Positions 9,544 to 61,800 of a stretch of 64,000 nt of DNA are shown one piece after another (position 1 is the first letter of the stretch; the number at the start of each line of letters is the position of its first letter). Both the position numbers and the translations under genes were made by a program. Source of the DNA: Medicago truncatula (Eukaryota; Streptophyta; Magnoliopsida; Fabales; Fabaceae); contig NC_053045.1 of the NCBI RefSeq assembly GCF_003473485.1, positions 58,198,494 through 58,262,493 on the forward strand, read 5' to 3'. The notes beneath the pieces are model-generated. The model saw only the letters and a program-made list of their open reading frames with translations, did no database searches and was not told where the DNA came from.

Positions 9544-12500
9544 ATGTCAGCCACCGGTGGCGCTGCCATCGCCGGCGGAAGCCGCAATCGTAATAGACAT
9601 CTCGGCGAGAATCGTTTCTATAGTCCACCACCGCTTCGTAAACACAGAGAAAAACAAGAACAACAAAGGTCTTCGCTTTCTAGAACCTCATCGGAAAATA
9701 GACCCGGTTCTTCTTCCGATTGCTCGATTTCTTCACGTGCTACATCTGATATTTCAAATTTGGATCGGTTTTTGGAGTATATTACGCCCCATGTTCCTGC
9801 ACAATATCTTCCTAAGGTTTCAATTTTCATCACCTTCAATTCAATTGCACTTTTTTATTTTCTTTTTAAGAGTTCAATTAGCATAATCATGGACCCTGTT
9901 GGCGAATTAGTGAATAAATGGGATTTTAAATAATGGGTCAATGTTTGATTCATAAAGGAATGAAATTTTAGATGTCTCTTAAATTGGGCTGTTACAAAAA
10001 ACAACATAGTATAACGTGTTAGTTTTTTAAGGTTAATGTCGGTTATTTGTTTTGTACTTTGTTTTCAATTCAAAGTACATTTTGGCTTATCTGGGTGGAA
10101 TATGTTGTTGTTGTTGTTGTGTTGTGTGGGAATGAATTGAACAGACAAGTTCAAGGAGATGGAAAACCAAGGAAGCTGAATTAGTACCGTACTATGTACT
10201 TGGAGATTTGTGGGAATCTTTTAAGGAATGGAGTGCATATGGGGCGGGTGTTCCTTTGGTGATGAATGGCAATGAATCTGTGACACAGTATTATAATGTT
10301 TCTTTGTCTGCCATTCAGCTTTATATTGATCCCACGAAACCTTCCACGCGGTTAAGGTTAGTATGTTGCCATGAAATGAAACATAGCATTTTTAAATGTT
10401 GTTCTTGAATGATTGGCATTCTACTATAATTTTGTTTTGTTTTTTAATTCTGTTTTACTATTTTCTTTTGTTATGACTTATGACCACTTGCATTAGTGTA
10501 TCTAATAACATGCATCATATTCTGCATGCTTCGTAAATGTGGCTCAAATTGCCAACTGACACCAGTGTTATTATCAAATAGAGGCGTTATAGTGCTACTG
10601 TGTAGTCGATTTTCAAGAATCTGGTATGAAAATCAATAAGCTAGCCCATTTTGGCTACGAGGGCGTTAGCGGCCATAGCAGTTGTAGCGACAATAGAGGA
10701 AAAAAAAGAATTTCGTTTTTTTGGGAAATGTTAACGAGTGCTCCCGGGGCACTCTTTAAGAACTATAAGTGGTAAGCATTTATGAAAATATGTGTATTCA
10801 ATGCATTGAAAATCAAAATATTTGATTTTTTTAAAGAATAATTGTTTATTTTGGAATGTTTAAAGAGTTTCCCGGGGCACTCGTTAACAAGACCTTTTTT
10901 TTTCCTATAAAAAAATAAAACTGTAGTGGCATTACACGAGCTGTATTTTAAAGGGTCTTGTTAACCGGTGCCCTGGCACAGGTTAAGGAATCCAAAAGTA
11001 GAAAAATTGTCTTGGAAATATAAACTGTTACTTTTAACTAACTAATTATTACACCATTTTTTAATAAAATCTTGCCTCTTTTAGCTGCTTAACCAATGCC
11101 CCGGGGGCACTGGTTAACATTCTCCTATTTTAAATAAGAAAACTGAAGAACCAGAGTGTTATTACTCATATAATCTCGCTAAGACATAAACCTCTCTATA
11201 CATAAGCTGTGCGCTGCCTCCTTGCTTTTCAACAAGCCATCTTCCATAGTTAGCGAGACTTTGGTGTTCTTCTGTCAAACATCTGAAATTTATTGGTTTC
11301 AGTAATAACTAGTCAGTATTTTTTATTTTTTTTGAAAATTGAGCTTGAGTTAATATCATGTCGCTTTCAAAAAAAAACTTTATGCAGTTTCTTAGTTGTT
11401 TGCAGCATACCTTTTTTTATATATAATTGACTTATTTTAACAGCTACGTGTCTTCTGCTATTTGCCCGCATCATTGTCTGCTATGTGGATTTTTGTCATC
11501 CCTCTATTTTCCATGACCTACTATTGATAACGATGCTGAGAATGAGAGGGTTTTACTTATTGTTCTCTGGTGCTAGAGAAAAGATTTAAAGAAGGTTCAC
11601 ATATGTTATTATTAAATTAATTAATCATCACATATTCACAAGAGTATTTTATCTGGTAGCTTTAAGCATAGCCTCTGTTGATTTAGACTTGCTAGAAACT
11701 GAATGTGATAGATAATTAATGTCACTCTAAAGTCTAAAAAGTCGTGTTGATTTGAACAGGAATGATTTTATCTGATGTCTGTATCCAAGCCTTCCAAAAT
11801 ATCCACATATTTAAGAATTTTGATTCTCTAACGTGAAAAAATGAACAGAGCTTAAATAAAACTTCACTTTTCTCTACAAATGGGAAAAGAATCGACTGAT
11901 AATCTCCCTTGACAACCGTGGTTGCTCATTCTTATTTTAGTGTTTTATTTGTTCTTGAAAAATGAGTAGATGGTACTGGCTTGTTTGAGGATGGCTATAC
12001 TAAATAAAAGTATATACAAATGACGATAGGCTCCGATACCAGCGTAGGTTCTGGTTTGAGTTTAATTCATCCTTACAAAATCAACCTGTATGGTGGGACT
12101 TACGTTTTCTCCAATAGCTTCTCATCGTTGTGCTATGGAGACGCCTTTGGCATATTATAGATAACATTCTCTTAATAATTGCACGTTGAAGGAGAACCTA
12201 TATGTAGGAGGAGAGGGGAAGGGAGAGCTTCCATCTTTTTTAATAGAGAGTTTGTAGAGAATGACAATTGAAGGCTTTATAATTATTATATTTTTAATTT
12301 TAAGAGTAATATCACAACATAGACTGGGTTTGAAGAATTTACCAAAACCTTCTAAAATTCTTTACCGTAATATGGGGGAACTTAAAAATTTATTGGAAGG
12401 GGATTTTGGAGGGCTTGGAAAAATTCTTTAAACCCTTTTCATCCCTTTATAGTAATCTCAAAATCAAAAATATATTAATCATAAACATTCTCTTCTCGTT

Positions 12501-39363: not shown

Positions 39364-39420
39364 AAGGGTCTTGTTAACGAGTGCCTCCGGGGCACTCTTT
39401 CAAAAGAAGAAATTATTTTA
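39364..39420. mobile_element. Partial MITE of the GTTAAC family
   Basis: GGGTCTTGTTAACGAGTGCC followed by TCCGGGGCACTCTTT matches the left end of the family. No right end is found, so it is truncated. Confidence 0.55.
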
Positions 39421-41616
39421 TAAAAAAGTCAAAGATTTCGATTTCCTATGCATTGATTACACATATTATGATAAGTTACCATTTAAAGGCCTATAGTTTT
39501 GGTGTTTATGTCCACTTTCACAAGAGAAAGTGGTGTAATCAATTACATTTGCAACAAAACGAATCATGCAACTTTCTCTCTAATTTTTTCTGGGTGACGG
39601 CTAGGATGAGTCAGCTGATATGTACTTCACCGTGAGGGAGTAAAAAATACCATTGAATTAGATATGTGGTCTAGATTAAACATAAGGAACACTAACATCT
39701 CTCCACACACAATCACTAACATACCATAAGTTTGATCCAATCTCACCCGTTAGATCAATCTCAGACACACCATAACATTGAATCCATCCTTTTGTCATCT
39801 CACAACCCAACCCAGATGCTAAAACATGTCTCCACCGTAAAACATGTCTCCACCATTTCAAAAACACACACAAAATGTCTCCACCCCCGTTCAACCCTTT
39901 TTGTCTCCATTTTCATTCTTGGCTTGCCCTAGTCTTGTTACTCCACAACCACAAAATGTACATGTACCTCCTACTTTAGAATCACACACCCTTCACTTAA
40001 CACCCATCAATTTACAAGAAGCTTATACTGTTTGAAGCTTATAAAATTAATGATATCTTAGTTTTCATATGCATCTTGCAAGAAGCACATACTCCATAAA
40101 AAATCAAGTTTTTATGAAATTGCTGTGTGAAAAATCATGTTGCAAGAAGCTTATGTAATTACTGTGTGAAATTGCTGCTATCTTAGTTTTACGATTTGCA
40201 AGAACCATAACAAAATTAATTGTGATTGAGTAGGGGATTTGCCAAATAAGTATATGCTTTGTCCTTGTCTTTCAAATCCGATCAAAACTAGGAAAAAATC
40301 GTTGCATTTCATTGTATATCGAGGGAGATCCGATCGGATTCGGATCACGGGTCGAAACAATCCGTATGCAACTCGCGGGCGAAGAAGATGACTGTTAAAA
40401 AAATGGCAAAAAAAAATAAAATTTGACTAAACCAGGGATCGAACCAGAGTCCCATAACTTGAAAAGCAATGAATATAACCATCGAAACCAACCATGTTCA
40501 CATGACATAGATGGATTTTGATTTTATTTAATGGATGTTAAACAGTTTTGAAAAGTGATCAAGTAATCAATAAATTAATTCACAAGCCTAAATAAAAATA
40601 ATATTGACACGCATTCATACATGAATGATAAAATTTAAAAGATAAATAATATTAAGTGTTGTGATTAAATTATTTCTCTTTTAAATTTTATCATTTTTGT
40701 GTGTCCAAATTTATTGATTTGGAGTTGTGTCCAACTAAGAATTTATCTTCTATATAATTAATTAATTCGACCGTTGAATAAGATCTAAGTGGACTAAGGA
40801 TGAAGTACAAACTCGAATTTTGGCGATCGAAAGCTTCCTTGTAAGTCAATTCGACAAACAATCCCTTCGTCAATATAATCTTGAAAATTTTCATTGATAT
40901 AATCTTGAAAATTTGGCTTTTAGAAAAATTCATATTTAATTTATTACATGTTAAAAAATAAAAGATTTTATAAAAGAGTGTCTTATGATGTTATGAACAT
41001 GTCTGTAAAAAATCTTTAAATTTTTTGAAGTTTAAGCATAATCAAACAAGTTTTAATTTAACAACGACTAAAACTACGTGCTAAATTATTTTATAGGGGC
41101 CAAAAACTGTCAAATTTTTTAATGAGGATTAAAAACGATTTGGTTCATGAGGATTAAAAAAATTAATTGTACTAATATTGAAAAGGTCATTTTGAACGGT
41201 CGGATTGAACGTGCTTGCTGTCGTTCAGATGATAGGCACGTTTAGTCTATGAGGTGATAGTTCGTCCGGATGACGTAATATTAAAAGAAATATAATTTTG
41301 TCTTATAACTTAATATTAATTTTTATTTTAAATTGTATTAACAGTAGATGTGTGTTTAAATAAATTTTATTTAAATTTTTGCCTATGTTATTCAGAAGTC
41401 TTATACTATATATAAATCTATCCTACCGTGAATTAATTGATGCATTCGTAAAAAAAAAAATGAATTAAATGATGCATTAAATGATTCCTTAAAAAAGAAT
41501 GAATTATTTTAATTGTCATTCAATACAGTTAATGAAAATTTAAAATATTTCCAATTCGTAAGTGATAGTGTTGAAATCGTGTTGCAACTGGCAACTTTTG
41601 ATTTTAGTCTTTTTAA
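39421..41616. other. Gene-free stretch
   Basis: It contains an adjacent duplication of AAACATGTCTCCACC (39823-39855) and a possible SINE (listed separately). No gene recognised. Confidence 0.45.
40395..40497 (-). mobile_element. Possible tRNA-derived SINE or tRNA relic
   Basis: On the minus strand an A-box-like TGGTTTCGATGG (40479-40490) is followed by a B box GGTTCGATCCC (40435-40445), with TTGCTTTTCAAGTTATGGGA between them resembling an anticodon arm and variable loop. A T-rich tail follows. The acceptor stem does not pair, so this is not a working tRNA. Confidence 0.45.
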
Positions 41617-49678: not shown

Positions 49679-51409
49679 ATCCAAATGAAACTCATGTTAT
49701 TGTTAACTTATGCATGTATGCTTTCATATTCTATCAAAGACAACGTCAAAAAATGCAAAGAAACTCTTCAGTTACAAACAAATTCATTTTTTATGAAGTC
49801 AAATTATCATTTGATAACAAAACATTTTTTAACCATATATACATTGGTGCAAACAATCTTGCACTTCTCATGTAAATAATTTGAGTGTCTGATAAATATT
49901 AAATAACGCCCAGACAGAAGTACTCAAAGACAACGAACAAGAAAGAAACAAAGTAAAATTATAATACTAAAGAACTTTCAACAGAAAAGTAACATATTTC
50001 TATCACTTCAAATCTACAATCTTTTGTACCATAACATGGTTGAAAGAATCATATCAGTTGAATAAGTATTAAAACAAAATCTAATCTAGACATAAAGCAT
50101 GGATGTTACCACACCGCGACTCGGTCCACCGATATTTCTCATTCTTGTTTCTGTGACGAGGTCAATATATGAATCAAATTCTATCCAGGACAGCAACAAG
50201 CCAGAACCACGAAAACAAACTGAACATAGCCACAACTACAACAAGAAGACATGGCAATAATGGCAGAAGCATCAAAGTAGCAAAGGAAAATCTCTTCCTG
50301 GAAGCACCGCTGGTTGGAAATACAGAAGGAAGAGAACATTCCTCCTCCTTGAAGAAGACTTTCGTGGGAAAGGCCTCACCACAAACGACACTGATTCCAG
50401 GAGTAGTTTTCTTTTCGTCAGTAGTGATGTTTGATTTGGACTTAGGATCTCTTGGGCAACACACATTAGTCCCATTCTTACCTAACAGTAACAACCATAA
50501 AAAAAATAAAAAAAGGTTAATTACACAAATACAAATTCCTAAACTAAACCAAATTAAGTTCCTGTTTCAATAAACAATATAATTAAAAGCTTAAAGCATA
50601 AGTTCTTATCATATAGGTGCATTATTTCCATAATAAAAGATCAAAATAAAGTCAAAAACCATTTTCGGTATAAGCTATAAGCTGTTTGCATAGGCGGGGT
50701 TTGTATGTTCTCTAAAACAGTCTCACAAATGCTTATGTCAGCAGTACATAAGTCCTCTAAAACCTTCTCACAAGTGCTTAGGTAAGTAGATAAACTCGAA
50801 TAAATCGATCCAAGCAAACCATTATTCAACAAATTGCAATACCCTTAATCAAATCTTAGATCAAACAAATTGCAATCCAAATTTCAACCAAATAAATAAT
50901 TTCAAAAAATAAAAAATCTCAATAAAGGAATAGTCGTTACCTTGACCAGTGGCTTTAGGACAGATGAATCCCATCATTAGCAAGCTTGATCGACGACAGC
51001 AATGGAACATCCGACAGCGCAACACAAAAAACAGTCCCAACAAGGCTGGTCTGAGCCTGCATCTGCTTCAAATCACCAGCTGTTTCAACAGCAGTCTTCA
51101 GATCCGTCTGGAAAACCAGCGAAAACTGTGCTGTTTCCAACGGCGGCAGGGAGGGTAGTACCGTCCTCAAGAACAGCATTGGAAGCAGAAACCAAAAGCT
51201 CATTGTGCTGAAATCCGACGGCGACTTTCTATGACTTGAGTTCATCGAGACCGTTGTTGAGCACGCTCAACATTGATTCGAATCAATAGGGTTGCTTCTT
51301 TGGGTCGGTGACGTTCGGTGGCAGTTGAACTCTGGCGGTGGAGGAGTATGAGATGAGTATCCCGTTGCACGATTGTGCATTGGTAAAGGACATCGTTGCA
51401 AGTATGATA
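49679..51409 (-). pseudogene. Decayed tandem copy of the COBRA-like gene
   Basis: It matches the intact COBRA-like gene at 53967-58768, including about 490 bp of 3' flank (49679-50170 versus 53413-53966). Exon 1 (about 51409-50941) lacks the first part of the signal peptide and carries frameshifts; one extra G near 50970 turns GFICxKxTGQG out of frame. The intron is about 460 bp with donor and acceptor kept (50940 and 50484). Exon 2 runs [13 protein letters not shown]...TTDEK straight into KTTPGISVV: about 390 residues, including the whole CCVS region, are missing by an in-frame deletion. The GPI-signal end remains but runs on a few residues. It cannot make a COBRA-like protein. Confidence 0.88.
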
Positions 51410-53412: not shown

Positions 53413-53966
53413 TCCAAATGAAACTCATGTTATTGTTGAACTTCCATGCATCCTTTCATCTTCTATCAAGACAACGTCAGTTTTTTTTTATTAAAAAAAA
53501 CAAAAACAAAGAAACTCTTTAGTTACAAACAGTTTCATTTTTTATGAAGTCAAATTATCATTGATAACAAAACATTTTTAACGATTGATGCATTGGTTTG
53601 GTGACCACAATCTTGCACTTCTCATGTAACAATTTGAGTGTCTGTGATAATAAACGCACAAAAAGAATTATAATAAAAACAGTAAAATTATAATACTAAA
53701 GAACTTTCAATAGAAAAGTAACATTTCTATCACTACAAATCTACAATCTTCTGTACCATAATAACAAGGTTGAAAGAATCATATCAGTTGAATAAGTATT
53801 ACAACAAAATCTAATCTAGACATAAAGCATGGATGTTACCACACCGCGACTCAGTCCTCGATATTTCTCATTCTTGTTTCTGTGACGAGGTCAATATATA
53901 TGAATCAAATCCTATCCAGGAAAACAGCAAGCCAGAATAGCAAAATCGAACGGAACATAACCACTA
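53413..53966 (-). repeat. 3' flank of COBRA-like gene, shared with the pseudogene copy
   Basis: The segment parallels 49679-50170 (CCAAATGAAACTCATGTTAT, CTAATCTAGACATAAAGCAT, GGATGTTACCACACCGCGAC). It defines one edge of the tandem duplication and includes the 3' UTR. Confidence 0.8.
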
Positions 53967-56900
53967 CTATAACAAGAAGACGACTAGCAACAATGGTAGA
54001 AGCATCAAAGTAGCAAAGGAAAATTCCTTCCTGGAAGCACCACTGGTTGGAAGTACAGAAGGAAGAGAACATTCCTCCCCATTGAAGAAGACTTTCTTGG
54101 GAAACCCGTCACCACCACGAACAACACTGATTCCAGGAGTAGTTTTCTTTGTGAATGAGATTACTGACTGTTGTTTCCCAGGCACCCTAGGATCTGTGCG
54201 AGGGTTAGCTCCATTTGTTTCTCCAACAAGGTAGTTCAATCCCTCCAAACCTTGCATTATTATCGTATTATTAACACCGCCTATTTCTATGGCGCTTGCA
54301 TTGAACGAGTACATTTTCTCAAAACCTGCAGCTGCTTTGTCCATTTGCACAGCAGTAAACCAGTCTGCAAAATTAGTCTCACCCCAATTGAAAAGTGTGA
54401 CCCTTGCACTCCAGCCTTTATTATAATCTGACAGTAAATGCCAGTTGATGCTCACACCGCAGTTATCACCACAAGGTGGTGGGTTTGGCGTTGGTAGATG
54501 TTTTATCCCTGCCCACGCATAAGCCTTGGCAGTTCGGTTCTCAAAAGGAACAAGGACAGCATCTGAGGGAAGCCACATGGCAGGTGCAGTAGTACTACAT
54601 GTTCTTGCTGTATTCTTGGGGCATCCACATGCACACGTTTTGCAAGGAATAACTGATTCATTGTAATAAGCTGAAAATGAGACACAGCATTTACTTGATG
54701 TTCCCTTGGCTGTTGTAATGTTACACACAACCTGCCAACTTGCCATTACAGTTTTGTTTAACGGCAACCCTGTTGGATCTGGATTCTCGGTAGGACTAAC
54801 ACGAACCAGAGGACCGCATTTGTAGTCAGGGTTAAGTGAACCACTAATCTTCCAGTTCTGTGGTGGTGAAAGCTCGGATCGGTTAAGCACCGGCGGCATT
54901 TTGTACACCTGCATTTGGAATCTCGAAATAGACTTACTAGGATCCATAGATTTTGGCAATATAGTACCGTTACGGCAACAAGAAGGAATTTTCCCAACAT
55001 CAGTATCATTGAATTTTGTAGGAGGAAGATCAATAATGGTAGGCCTCCTCTGACAATTCAATACATTAGCAAAATCCAGATCCTTGTAGTATGTACCTTG
55101 CTTACCAAAAATACAACCAGAAGCATCCAGAACAGATGGATAAGCTCCTTTCATTGTAAATATAAACTCGTCATTCATCCAGTCCCAGCTCAACCTCCAA
55201 TTATCAAGCCTTCCGAGAGGATTTTGGTTACCGATCGTAACCTCTGCCCAGTAATTTGAATCATAGGATCTAATCACATCATACATGATCGTAAGATCGC
55301 CATTTTGACGCGGCAGAAACTTTTCATCTGTAGTGATGTTTGCTTTGAACTTAGGATCTCTTGTGCAACAAACATTAGTCCCATTCTTACCTAACAGTAA
55401 CAACCATTAAAAAAAGGTTAAATTAAGTTCCTGTTTCAATAAACAACTTAATTAAAAGCTTAAGGCATAAGTGATTATCATATAGCTGCTTATGTATTAA
55501 CTATTTCTATAAGAGAAGATAAAATAGTTGTTTTCGTAGGCAATTATCAAAAGTTCTCTTAAGACAGTCTCTCAAAACATCTCACAAGTATTTATGTAAG
55601 CAGATAAAGTCTCTCAGGGTCTGTTTGGCAAGCCACATGTTTGAGCTTATAGTTATAGCTTATGTCTTATAAGCTCATTTGACTAAAAAAGAACCGTTTG
55701 GTAAGCTTATTTTTACTGGCTTATAGTGTTTTTTGATAAGCTAATACAAATAACTTATGGGTCTTGTTAACGAGTGCCCTGAGGGCATTCTTTAAGGTTT
55801 CCCAATTAAGAAATTATTCTTTGAAAAAGTTTTTAACACTTCAAGAATGCCCTTAAAGAATGCCCTAAGGGCATTCGTTAACATTTCCCATAGAGTGAAT
55901 ACCCAAATTTGTCCCTGAATTTGCACGAATCGGACAAAAACGTCCCCCAATTTATCGAAATGCACGCTTCGTCCCTGAATTTGACAAACGTCCATCAAAA
56001 TAGTCATTCCGTCCAAATGCTCCAGTAGTGCTGCTGAGCTATCGTCCTACATGTCATGTTGTCTTGTACACGTGTCTACAAGGAAGTCACGTGTACAAGG
56101 ACTAATTTGATGAAAACGGTAAAAATTTCAGTTTTGTTTTTTAAATTCAATTTTTTCTACTTTTCCAAATTTACCCCTTTATTCACCCATCCTCACATTT
56201 CAGTCAAAACATCAAACACGTCCCTGACCTTTCTCCTTCCCGCTAAAACCTTCATCATCAATATCTACAGCGAGGAACATTGCAAAAGATTCCGTTTTGA
56301 CTGAAGATTTCGTCGTTTCTTAAGTTAACGCCTCATGTTCGTTTTCTCCCTTTTTTGTGTTCGTTTTTGTGATTTTCGTTTTCAGTTTTTAGGCATTCGT
56401 TTTCAACTTTAAACTTCATTTCATGCTTGCTTTGATGTTCGTTTTTGCTTACTTTGATTGTGTTTTTTAGATTACTGATATTAGGGTTTTGTGTTAAAGT
56501 CTTAAAATACAGAAAATGTTGGAGATGGAAACGCTAAAAATTTCAGTTTTGTTTTTTAAATTCAATTTTTTCTATTTTTCCAAATTTACCCCTTTATTCC
56601 CCATCCTCACATTTCGGTCAGAACATCAAACACGTCCCTGACCTTTCTCCTTCCCGCTAAAACCTTCATCATCAATATCTACGGCGAGGAACATTGCAAA
56701 AGATTTCGTTTTGACTGAAGATTTCATCGTTTCTTAAGTTAACGCCTCATGTTCGTTTTCTATTCAATCATGTTCGTTTTCTCCCTTTTTTGTGTTCGTT
56801 TTTGTGATTTTCGTTTTCAGCTTTTAGGCATTCGTTTTCAACTTTAAACTTCATTTCATGATTGCTTTCATGTTCGTTTTTGCTTGATTGTGTTTTTTAG

Positions 56901-58768
56901 ATTACTGATATTAGGGTTGTGTTGAAGTCTTAAAATACAGAAAATGTTGGAGATGTTGCAGAAAATGCTGGAAATGTATCAGGAAATGCAGAAAATTTGC
57001 TAGTAAGTGTAATAATTTAGGGACTGATTTGATTGAATGTTTTATGAATTAGGGACTGAGATGATTGAAAATGTTGTTGCAGGGTGTTCCTGCAAGAAGG
57101 TATGGCATCAGAGAGCCAATTATTTCAAATGAGAGACCTAAGCAAACATCAATGAGGGATCCTGCACCAGCACATCCAACTGCTCCTGACGTTATTAGAG
57201 TACCATATCCAAATTATGGTCCATCCGGTTCAACTCAACCTAAGTTCATGGAGTTTATCCTAACCCCTGGCTTTCCAAAGAAGTGATACTTGATGCATGT
57301 TTAAATTATGCTTTTGGATTTGTAATATTTCGACTTGTTTATGCCCCCTAGTTGGGTTTCTTTTTGGCTATGTGATATTTAAGATCATGCTTCTATGACT
57401 TATGACTTGTTAATGCCCCATAGTTTGGTTGCTTTTTCCTATGTAATATTTCAAACTTGAAGACTTAAGAATTATGACTTATTTAATGGTATTTTCAAGG
57501 ATGAAGTTGTGTCTTCTGTCTTTTTCACTATGTTTTGCAAATATATGCTTCAAGGATCAAATTGGATATATGTTTATAAAATTCAAAGACTTATTTGACG
57601 GGTTTTTAATATAATTTAAGGATCAATTTGGAAGTAAAAAAAGTAACATGGGCAAAATTGCACAACATTTTTTGCAATCAATCAATTTCGTCCTTGAAAT
57701 TTTTTGTCACTATCAACCAATTTAGTCCCTGCTTATGTGGCATCTGACTTAGCAACCCATGTGAGAGGTTAACGGTCACGTCATCACCGTTAACGCCCCA
57801 AATGGACGAAGGGACTAATTTGATTGAGATATATTCAGGGACAAAGCGTGCATTTCGATAAATTGGGGGACGTTTTTGTCTAATTCGTGCAAATTCAAGG
57901 ACAATTTGGGTATTCACTCATTTCCCATAACTTATAACTTATAATTTTTTTATCTCAATTTTACCCTTACAACCTTAATTGGAAAATAATAATAATAATA
58001 ATATATATATATTTTTGATGTCATTTGATATTTATAAGCTAGTTCAACATCTAATTTTACCAAACAATACATATAAATCCAATGATCTAGCTTATGCGCT
58101 GTCAACTATAAGCTAACTTATAAGCTAGCTATTCACAATTTTTGACCAAACAGAGCCTCAATAAGTCGATCCAATTTGAAACAAATCTAAGATCAAACAA
58201 ATTTCAACCTAGACAAAAATTCAAAAAAGGAAAAGAAGGTACCTTGACCGGTGGTTTTTTGACAGATGAATCCATCATTAGCAAGCTTGATCGACTTCGG
58301 CAACGGAACATCCGGCGGCGCCACACCAAAAACAGTCCCAACAAGACTGACCTGAGCCTGCATCTGAGTCAAATCACCAGCTGTTTCAACAGCAGTCTTC
58401 AGATCCGTCTGCGGAAAACCAGCAAAAACGGTGCCGTTTCCAACTTCGGCAGGGAGGGTAGTACCGTCAGCGAGAACAGCATTTGAAGCAGAAACAAGAT
58501 ACTCGTCGTGCTGAAACTCGACGGCGACTTTCCATGACTTGAGTTCATCGAGACCGTTGTTTAGCACGCTTAAGGTTGATTCGAATCGGTAGGGTTGCTT
58601 CTTTGGGTCGGTGACGTTAGGCGGCAGTTGTACTCCGGTGGAGGAGGAGTATGAGACGAGTATACCGTTGCACGATTGTGCATCAGTAAACGACGTCGTT
58701 GTGAGTATGATTGTTGCTAAGAGGATGGTGAAGAAGCTACAGAGGTTTCGTAGCGAAATCATCATCAC
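53967..58768 (-). CDS. COBRA-like protein (COBL7/COBL10-11 subgroup)
   Basis: Two exons, 58768-58243 and 55390-53967, give 649 residues. The GT-AG intron is 2852 bp and full of transposons. Protein: a signal peptide (about 1-30, [20 protein letters not shown] then TDAQSC); an extra N-terminal domain typical of the longer COBRA subgroup ([20 protein letters not shown]); then the COBRA domain with [20 protein letters not shown], the Cys-rich [20 protein letters not shown], and [20 protein letters not shown]; a likely GPI attachment site near TSGAS and a hydrophobic tail [18 protein letters not shown]. There are many N-glycosylation sites. Family role: a GPI-anchored extracellular protein that affects cellulose microfibril orientation and wall assembly; members of this subgroup act in tip growth and pollen tubes in Arabidopsis. 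The frame is intact. The exact orthologue is not determined. Confidence 0.94.
55759..55889. mobile_element. Middle nested element: MITE of the GTTAAC family
   Basis: It begins GGGTCTTGTTAACGAGTGCC and ends GCATTCGTTAACATTTCCC. ATAACTTAT precedes it (55750-55758). The matching ATAACTTAT lies at 57927-57935, beyond the inner MULE, next to a second copy of TTTCCC. This shows that the MITE inserted first and the MULE then landed in its last bases. Confidence 0.85.
55893..57920. mobile_element. Inner nested element: Mutator-like element with about 90-bp TIRs
   Basis: The terminal repeats begin GAGTGAATACCCAAATTTGT (left) and, reversed, TGAGTGAATACCCAAATTGT (right), and match for about 90 bp. TTTCCCATA flanks both sides (55884-55892, 57921-57929), a 9-bp duplication as in Mutator-like elements. 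Inside is a 415-bp tandem duplication (from about 56113 and 56528) and, at about 57083-57286, a coding-like exon after TTGTTGCAG reading [20 protein letters not shown] to [12 protein letters not shown] and a stop. That C-terminus recalls plant MuDR-type transposases ending MQFMPTPG; this is inference. No transposase core remains, so it is a nonautonomous deletion product. Confidence 0.88.
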
Positions 58769-58833
58769 CGTTGTGTCTGTTTGGGATTTTTTTGCTTCAA
58801 ATTCGAAATTTGAAGCCGTGTGAGAGAAACCAA

Positions 58834-58842
58834 ATATATATA
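58834..58842 (-). promoter_or_regulatory. TATA box of the COBRA-like gene
   Basis: Minus-strand TATATATAT lies about 65-75 bp upstream of the ATG, a suitable distance for a TATA box with a short leader. Confidence 0.45.
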
Positions 58843-58844
58843 CT

Positions 58845-61800
58845 GTTTGTTTGTTTATTTATTTTTTGAAAGTAAAAGTTCTAAAAAAGATACCATGGTA
58901 TTTTTGGTAAGAAATAAATTTGGTATTTATTTATTTTATAATTAAAGATACTGGTTAATTTTGTAAAAGGAAAATGAATAACGGTTAAACGCGTTCAAGA
59001 AATGGAAAGGGTCATCCAGCTTAGAAGAAGCTGTAATTTGACTTAGTGTGATGAATGATCTTTTAATTTAATATAAGATTATACTCTTTTTTTTTTTAGA
59101 TTAAGTTTATAGTAGTTTATATCTCCTTTTATTTATTTATCTATGCCGTGTGTGAACTATGTGAATTGATTAATTCAGAGGACAGGGCATATTTGCTGGG
59201 GTTACAATTGCGTGCCGTTCCATTTTCAAATTATTTAATTTCGTTTGTGTAAAAAGACTAGAAAAAAGGTTTTGTGTTTTTCTTTTACTATGTTCATTTC
59301 AACTTTTTCTATCTATTGAAACGGTCCTCAACAGCTCTAAAAATATCGTGCTTCAAATTTGAATTACTGGATGCCGGAGACTGGGGGGAGCTTTTTGGTA
59401 TTCGTTGCCTTTATGTGCTCTGATTGGTTACTTTTTGGGTACATGCCCCCGAGGCCCAATGAACGAAGGATGCAAATTTTAAATAATTTATTTTACTCTG
59501 TTCGAATTATATAATTTAAAACATATTTATGCTATTTGGAATTATATAATCTAACCTTGTAAAAAAATTAGAAACACTAACCAGATGATATGAATGTCTC
59601 CGTTAACCAATAACCACTGTACTATCTCACAAAAACTGCACATCACATCAGTTTTGAGGATGATATGAATAATCAATAATGACCACGACATCATAGTCCC
59701 CCCTCAAGAAAAGTACTTTTGTCGGTCTCAAATATAAGCAAAAATTGAATCAACCAAAGTTTATGTATTTAGTCCAAAAGTTGAAATAAATACATTCATT
59801 TTTGTTGACTCGACTTTTGTTTATATTCGAGACTAATGGTCTGTTTGTTTGAAGAGAGATGGAGGAGAGAGAGAAATAGACACGAGAAAGAGGGAAGAGA
59901 GAATGCATATATGCAGTTTGGAACAGCAGAGAAAAATGGGAGAGAGACCAAATATACGTGGGCCCCATAACTATTCTTCTTCTCCCCTATTGAGCGAAGA
60001 AATGCAAAAGAAACATCCACTCTTTTGCTTTTCCACTTTTACCCTTCTTTCTTTGTAAGCTGTGCACACTAGCACCCTTATGTTGAATTGATATTGATGG
60101 GTAGTGTTTTTTTTTTCTTTCTTCCTTTTACGGGTGATTATAATTTTAACTTTTAAGTAATATTATATCATCAAATTAATTGTATTAATAATAATGGAGC
60201 AAAATGTGGGTGTTAGTTTATTAGATAGATAGGTAGACCAGCAATGGAAATAGTTTTTTTATTTTTATTCTAAACAAGCAATGGAAATAGATGTATGGAT
60301 CCGCATGTGTTAGTTAACTAAATTATTATTCTTTTTACCATATATAAATTATTTAAACCGTGTCAAAAAATTAAAATTAATTAATCTAATCAAATTAAAA
60401 AATTGTGTTAATTTGTTAGTTTAATAAATTAATTAAATAAATTAACATACATAGATAAATTATATGTTGGTTCAAGGATTTTTAAGTTGGGGCATTTTAG
60501 TACTTTCAAAGGTAATCAACACTTCTTTCTTCTCTATTTCTTCTATCTTTCTTTTCTACCAAACAATCCATCAAATCTACTCTATTTCTCACCTATTTCT
60601 CACGTATTTCTATCTTCTTTTACTCTCTCCCTTACTTCTCTCTTCACAACTTCTCTTTACTACCAAACAAACAAAGTGTACAGGAAGTAAGAAAGAAAAT
60701 GGAAATAAGAAAAGATGATAATTGCAACAAAAATACAAAACTTTTTATAGTCAAATGACAGTCTAGACTATAACTACAGTGAAGTCTAAACAAAACTTTT
60801 TATGGTCAAATTTTTTGTTTTGAATTATTGGGCCATTGGCCAATAGCATAATCCTGATTGTATATAAAGCACTATTTTATTTTATTTTGACAAAAGCACC
60901 ATTCTTTTGTTTTTTCCTCAAATATTCTCAAGTTCATTGTTGGTATTGTTAGATGGACGAAGATTTTCTCTATTTAATTGGCATTTTTATTTAGAGAGAT
61001 AAACTAATAACACTATTTTTTTGGTTACATACACTAATAACACTATGAATACAATGTTATTTATTTAATGTAATGTAAACTTAAAAACCTATTGTTAATA
61101 TATGGAGGTGGGAGTATCAACCAAAACCTATTTTTATAGCTTCTTAAACACTATTTTATGGCTTAAATACTTCTACTTGGATCCTTCTATAATTGTATGA
61201 CAATTGCTCTTCTCCCATTAATTTTTGCTCATTCCCGTCAAATAGCCGAGCGTAAGTTATCATGCGCAGGTGTATTTTCAGTTTGAGTTAACTCACATAG
61301 GTGTATTTTTCAGTGTGAGTTAACTCACGTAGGACAAAATAGATGGGAGAAGAGCAATTCTCTAATTATATTGAATCCAAAAAAAAACGAAACGGCTTGC
61401 TTCACCAAAAAAAAAAATCATGAGTTTTTCTTTTACCACCCTCAATTTCTTGGAAGCCCGTCAAAATCCACATATTTTTATTTTTAAGGATAAAATCCAC
61501 ATAATTAAAAACAACAATTTCTTTAGGAAAAAAAATCACAATTTCAACAACATAAATCCAACTGTGACGCAACAACAACAACAACTTTTTTTGAGCATGA
61601 ATTCAACTCGATTCAAACTCACAACTAACTTAATTTGACTCGGTTCAACTCAATAGCTCGAATCAAATGAACCAAAAAATAAAAAAAATAAACTACAAGA
61701 ACCACTTGTGATTCTTCAACTTTAAATTTAAATAAAATATAACTAATTTACTAAGGTCATATGATTTGAACTCGGCCAGACATCCAGTGATCATCATTTT

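Follow-up and report, generated by a model that had tools for sequence, protein, structure and literature searches.

A probable four-level stack of DNA transposons in a COBRA-like intron of Medicago truncatula

The intron of a COBRA-like gene on the minus strand of a 64,000-nucleotide stretch of the Medicago truncatula genome (NCBI RefSeq assembly GCF_003473485.1, contig NC_053045.1, forward-strand positions 58,198,494 to 58,262,493; hereafter the window, in which positions are numbered from 1) very probably holds cut-and-paste DNA transposons stacked in four levels by stepwise insertion. What looks like an eroded Tourist-like miniature inverted-repeat transposable element (MITE) forms level 1; a second Tourist-like MITE is level 2, a Mutator-type MITE level 3 and a Mutator-like element (MULE) level 4 (Table 1). 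An earlier sequence-only reading had described the three inner levels, and their flanking repeats were located as it had claimed: TCA, ATAACTTAT at both sites, and TTTCCCATA at 55884-55892 and 57921-57929. The element types, nesting and relative order that it proposed found support in further copies of every family elsewhere in the genome (430 Mb, 42 contigs), the source of each family copy described here. The older fourth layer had been missed. The observation was thus confirmed as sound, slightly off in detail, one layer short and biologically ordinary, and the first interpretation as a whole was partly supported.

Three inserted elements and their target duplications

The terminal inverted repeats (TIRs) of the level-2 Tourist-like MITE, GGGTCTGTTTGG and GGCTCTGTTTGG, agreed at 11/12 positions and fit the G(N)5GTT motif. 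When the inner elements were removed from the intron, these ends were the sole 12-base pair at least 200 bases apart with at least 11 matching bases and equal flanking triplets; no end pair of this kind was found in 12 shuffles of the same sequence. One of 1,000 shuffles, and none of 1,000 random window stretches, scored as high as the alignment of the whole inverted arms. Three abutting bases were common to two random window places in 46,050 of 2,000,000 draws. Because sharing of three bases is so frequent by chance, TCA by itself is weak evidence, and the duplication is backed by the TIR agreement and by family copies with the same terminal bases. At least 42 pieces matching the left arm were found genome-wide, the window included (best 40 of 240 candidates scored). 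Among 13 fetched copies, 8 were flanked by identical 3-bp duplications (L037, L041 and L047, TTA; L044 and L049, TAA; L045, ATA; L046, GTA; L048, CTA), a count that includes L041 with its poorly matching ends and from which right-end candidates inside the element had been discarded. Near-matching duplications were present in L042 and L043, and the right end was not clear in L038-L040. With TTA three times, TAA twice and ATA, GTA and CTA once each, the family appears to tolerate triplets besides TTA/TAA. When the Tourist arms were compared by BLAST with 200 kb around the window, no extra copy was found; the matches that did appear were short and confined to a single low-complexity segment in the right arm. 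hAT elements produce an 8-bp target duplication; assignment of the outer element to hAT was rejected, its flanks having only TCA in common.

The level-3 MITE lies between two copies of ATAACTTAT that agree 9/9, and 9 abutting bases were common to two random window places in 8 of 2,000,000 draws. Its hairpin had a folding energy of -62.2 kcal/mol, compared with a mean of -25.3 for 200 shuffles. The two ends are unlike each other, with GGGTCTTGTTAACG on one side and GGGAAATGTTAACG on the other, and one end of each type was present in all 11 other two-ended copies when up to 3 mismatches were allowed (window 10723-10895, window 10953-11125, L005 and L050-L057). L050-L057 had been selected through a match to the first end, and independent evidence there is the second end only; L050 and L051 have common flanks and are not independent of each other. 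Because family copies pair both end types, the right end of the nested MITE was set at CATTTCCC, and its final 7 bases are repeated at 57920-57926. End pairs that joined two different copies or had false ends were dropped before the counts (window 10723-11125; L055 59-207), as were extra pairings in window 10723-11125, L034 6137-6660 (different ends) and the nested MITE read against the MULE. The 11 copies measure 155-177 bp, the nested one 131 bp. Their 9-bp duplications were exact in 6/11, with one mismatch in 2 more.

The MITE part of a query spanning the Tourist-MITE junction matched at least 39 other genomic places (best 40 of 612 candidates scored), and the MITE was absent from its site in all 9 aligned Tourist copies (L037, L042-L049). 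When the MITE and one ATAACTTAT were removed from the nested Tourist element, the junction was gap-free with 6/9 of these copies (L037, L042, L043, L044, L047 and L049). This gap-free junction shows the middle MITE's empty site.

The bases abutting the ends of the level-4 MULE read ATTTCCCATA on both sides (10/10), and 10 abutting bases were common to two random window places in 1 of 2,000,000 draws. Its inverted ends, which start GAGTGAATACCCAAA, were 85% identical over 123 columns with gaps and 91% identical ungapped. The first 128 bp had at least 40 genomic matches, a count in which the window is included and some copies appear with both ends (best 40 of 289 candidates scored). Ten two-ended copies were examined, namely L003, L008 and L009-L016, the eight picked for two facing end matches; 7/10 (L003, L008, L012-L016) were flanked by 10-bp duplications differing at no more than one base. 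The 9-bp duplication TTTCCCATA given by the sequence-only reading was therefore rejected in favour of 10 bp, since the TIR ends at 57919 and seven relatives have the longer form. The family favours 10-bp target duplications, not the usual 9-bp.

No Pfam transposase was detected in 7 open reading frame (ORF) translations of the nested MULE or in 5 ORFs of its relatives, and because there was no such match the element was not classed as a coding MULE. ORF pieces of the relatives L015 and L016 carry the CCHC zinc-knuckle motif CGRCGLIGHNLRGC, and a remnant in the nested copy is similar to the C terminus of an ORF remnant of L015. We take the zinc-knuckle pieces (L015, L016) and the C-terminal tail (L015, nested copy) to be putative MULE transposase pieces, to which Pfam gave no match. 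Inside the MULE a stretch of about 430 bp is tandemly duplicated; it is single in the relatives that match there, because both copies match overlapping stretches in those relatives. The element ends had 0 matches in viral_contigs and genome_contigs, as expected for a plant.

Table 1. Window positions of the gene, the four levels of elements and their target duplications
Feature	Position	Strand	Basis
COBRA-like gene, exon-1 stretch (protein from MMISL)	58243..58858	-	joined-exon translation
COBRA-like gene, exon 2	53967..55390	-	Pfam COBRA + COB_C
COBRA-like intron, 2,852 bp, GT-AG ends	55391..58242	-	donor GTACCTTC, acceptor ...TGTTAG
Level 1 (oldest), Tourist-like MITE remnant, right end eroded; pieces 55426-55613 and ~58161-58174	55426..58174		family alignment
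Possible level-1 left duplication, TTA	55423..55425		flank of level-1 remnant
Level 2, Tourist-like MITE, 364 bp without inserts and one ATAACTTAT	55617..58157		ends and family copies
Level-2 target duplication TCA	55614..55616 (left), 58158..58160 (right)		abuts level 2
Level 3, Mutator-type MITE, 131 bp, near-perfect hairpin; second end in reverse	55759..55889		family copies and hairpin
Level-3 target duplication ATAACTTAT, left	55750..55758		level-3 MITE
Level-3 target duplication ATAACTTAT, right	57927..57935		level-3 MITE
Level 4 (youngest), MULE, 2,027 bp, TIRs ~120 bp, no recognisable transposase domain	55893..57919		ends and family copies
Level-4 target duplication ATTTCCCATA, left: 7 bases of MITE end and 3 of the MITE's own duplication	55883..55892		MULE
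Level-4 target duplication ATTTCCCATA, right	57920..57929		MULE
67-codon remnant in MULE	57083..57286	+	residues shared with L015; no Pfam match
Tandem duplication in MULE, copies 56109-56527 and 56524-56955	56109..56955		90.7% identity gapped, 97% ungapped
Paralogue's level-1 MITE copy, flanking TTA 50554-50556 and 50822-50824; no level 2-4 elements	50557..50821		alignment

The older repeat, the host intron and the tandem paralogue

The left intron flank proved to be repetitive, with at least 40 genomic matches, including the gene itself and its tandem paralogue, nearly all within 55419-55526 (best 40 of 448 candidates scored). The matching stretch in the paralogue is window 50551-50648. When 10 copies were aligned with the insert-free gene and the paralogue, the repeat ran across the Tourist insertion point via a stretch like GATAAGCTCAAATAAGTCAATCCAAACAG. 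Its ends resemble Tourist-like TIRs, and exact 3-bp duplications were found in 4/10 fetched copies (TTA, TAT, TTA and TAA), where the 10 include L060, L062 and L064, whose right end was not properly found. The Tourist target TCA stands at this point in 6/9 of the copies that cover it (L058, L059, L061, L062, L063 and L065) and is absent there in L064, L066 and L067; L060 does not cover the point. The intron sequence that received the level-2 element thus looks like another Tourist-like MITE. Since this older repeat counts as a layer of its own, the nest has four levels, not three. The level-1 repeat is common to both tandem gene copies and most simply entered before the duplication.

The host gene was identified by matches of exon 2 to Pfam COBRA (1.9e-63) and COB_C (2e-98); a Pfam search of the exon-1 stretch gave no COBRA domain. 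When the exons were joined, an uninterrupted protein of 648 amino acids was obtained, and the intron begins GTACC and ends TTAG, bearing out the claim that the gene had kept its frame and its GT-AG splice sites. With both intact, the transposon stack would leave the transcript together with the intron. No host function for the stack is indicated. Subtraction of levels 2-4 and one TCA left an intron of 308 bp, and about 103 bp remained once level 1 was also subtracted, a rough figure given the eroded right end of that level. The proposed growth of the intron from 0.45 to 2.85 kb was correct for its present length, whereas the length before Tourist arrival was 308 bp; the 457 bp behind the smaller figure is the intron of the paralogue.

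The paralogue (window 50170-51408) is 86% identical to the COBRA-like gene in its best-aligned stretches. It lacks about 1.17 kb of exon 2, where the BLAST pieces 53901-54150 and 55320 onward adjoin, and in its exon-1 stretch the gene's protein is recognisable only from partway through the listed open frame. It is most likely a pseudogene but can still stand for the level-2 site before insertion, where it reads CTCGAATAA, with TCG in place of TCA. The paralogous intron had been read as the preserved empty site of the outermost element. It is indeed without all three elements and the empty site is real, but it lies in the older repeat, not in unique intron, and the paralogue is broken.

Order of insertion and alternative histories

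The right-hand duplication of the MITE starts with ATA, a triplet that sits within ATTTCCCATA, the left duplication of the MULE, and makes up 2.8% of window triplets, which gives the chance of coincidence. Because ATA falls inside the MULE duplication, the MITE was already in this Tourist copy when the MULE landed, and the insertion order Tourist, MITE, MULE holds. According to the sequence-only reading, every duplication had been interrupted by the following insertion, which fixed the sequence of events. TCA is not split, the MITE having split the Tourist body, and only the right-hand duplication of the MITE is touched by the MULE. The order is fixed for insertion of the elements into one another; for their entry into the intron it is not, as an inner element may have come in with the Tourist element. 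The identities of the best-scoring relatives (level 1, 77% over about 175 bases; Tourist left arm, 79% over 142; MITE, 92% over 75; MULE, 95% over 128) are in line with younger elements lying inside.

In the history that we propose, the level-1 Tourist-like MITE would have entered the intron before the tandem gene duplication. After the duplication, a second Tourist-like MITE would have inserted into level 1 in one gene copy, duplicating TCA, followed by a Mutator-type MITE that inserted into the second Tourist-like MITE, duplicating 9 bp. A MULE without a working transposase would have come last, inserting across the MITE end and duplicating 10 bp. Each element was presumably moved in trans by transposases encoded elsewhere.

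Several observations weigh against this history. The identities trace an age gradient only roughly, since partial Tourist matches reach 89-90% over 88-91 bases and level-1 matches 85%. The right end of level 1 is eroded in the gene, and its duplication was seen in the paralogue alone, and even there only when the left end was shifted by one base; the joined gene site and the paralogue also differ by small indels. The likeness between the level-2 arms is modest, one of the 1,000 shuffles having equalled its score. TCA differs from the usual PIF/Harbinger TTA/TAA and was found in 0/8 of the other duplication-bearing Tourist copies. The expected duplication was absent in 5/13 Tourist copies, in 3/11 MITE copies (L053, L055 and window 10723) and in 3/10 MULE copies (a 9-bp duplication with 1 mismatch in L010; none clear in L009 and L011).

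The nest shows in what order the elements inserted into each other and no more, and the outer TIRs retain a close match (11/12), so that the Tourist element could have entered the intron in a single gain, already loaded with the MITE and perhaps the MULE. We consider this unlikely, as the listed matches to the junction query contained no second composite copy. The query, whose Tourist-MITE boundary lies between bases 59 and 60, gave at least 41 matches, two of which were the window itself, and none of the remaining 39 listed began before query base 39; the furthest-reaching, L050 and L051 (from bases 39 and 42), were without the Tourist arm, and matches beginning at 44-52 were left out of the fetched set. 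Loss from the paralogue through excision or gene conversion, with the insertions of levels 2-4 predating the tandem duplication, would account for the several base differences between the paralogue site and the joined gene site. It is a good deal less credible still, as CTCGAATAA has few changes from the family (5/9 level-1 copies CTCA, one TTCA), as for a never-occupied site, and clean loss of a 2.5-kb nest is less simple.

The origin of ATAACTTAT could also be questioned. ATAACTT recurs in the Tourist element, a third ATAACTTAT lies at 57934-57942, and copies of the Tourist family carry tandem AGCTTAT-like units at this point, so the repeat could be native to the element and the MITE inserted without duplication. 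Removal of the MITE with 9 bp gave the gap-free junction described above, however, and 9-bp duplications with at most one mismatch flank 8/11 MITE copies elsewhere, leaving a native repeat the least probable of these alternatives by our estimate. The exact strike of the MULE across the MITE terminus raises the highly speculative idea that the palindromic end of one Mutator-type element serves another as a landing site, and that such ends may be preferred targets here. If true, such a preference would build nests stepwise inside introns.

Relation to described elements

Nesting of DNA transposons is ordinary in plants, as is their presence in introns. The four layers form a compact readable record in one intron, suited to teaching or to benchmarking of transposon annotation and relative dating, and are a reminder that a seemingly unique intron flank, or the empty site of a paralogue, can itself be an older transposon. 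Knowledge of these elements is unchanged, and the locus illustrates a familiar process cleanly without adding a new one. The literature search turned up general work on MITEs and nested insertions but no paper about the locus, and searches by element end sequences gave matches for GGGTCTGTTTGG alone, unrelated by title.

For PIF/Harbinger in M. truncatula, PMC2213677 describes 3-bp duplications (TTA/TAA) together with the G(N)5GTT motif; it also reports elements inserted into one another and empty sites in paralogues. The outer element resembles the MtPH families described there in its terminal motif and 3-bp duplications, with a TIR close to those of MtPH-D (GGCTWTGTTTGG) and MtPH-E (GGGCCTGTTTGR). 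It differs in having no transposase and in TCA rather than TTA/TAA, in a comparison of ends, motif and duplications. In about 300 kb including neighbouring stretches, one other end pair of the outer-element kind was reported (L036 4341-7070, TAA on both sides); it spans 2,730 bp with ends GGGTCCGTTTGG, and MtPH-A6 subfamilies are listed with those ends in PMC2213677.

In PMC3903597, MULEs of maize and rice are recognised by TIR identity above 75% and a duplication of 8-11 bp. The inner MULE, with TIRs of 85% identity and a 10-bp duplication, agrees with both criteria. That paper treats nested insertions in MULEs, whereas here the MULE is itself the inserted, innermost element and is without a recognisable transposase domain.

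In PMC4486113, 9-nt duplications are called typical of MULEs, and insertions of MuTAnT in transcribed regions fall in untranslated regions or introns. The middle MITE is like MuTAnT of M. truncatula in being short, non-autonomous and MITE-like with 9-nt duplications. MuTAnT, as described there, has the end mask GGGGTTTGCTAGAACA and targets TA microsatellites, whereas the middle MITE family ends GGGTCTTGTTAACG / GGGAAATGTTAACG. Other members of the middle MITE family occur in the window. The copies at 10723-10895 and 10953-11125 are separated by 57 bp and point in opposite directions; the latter has a perfect 9-bp duplication, TATTTTAAA. A seemingly truncated copy with the left end only is present at 39366-39429.

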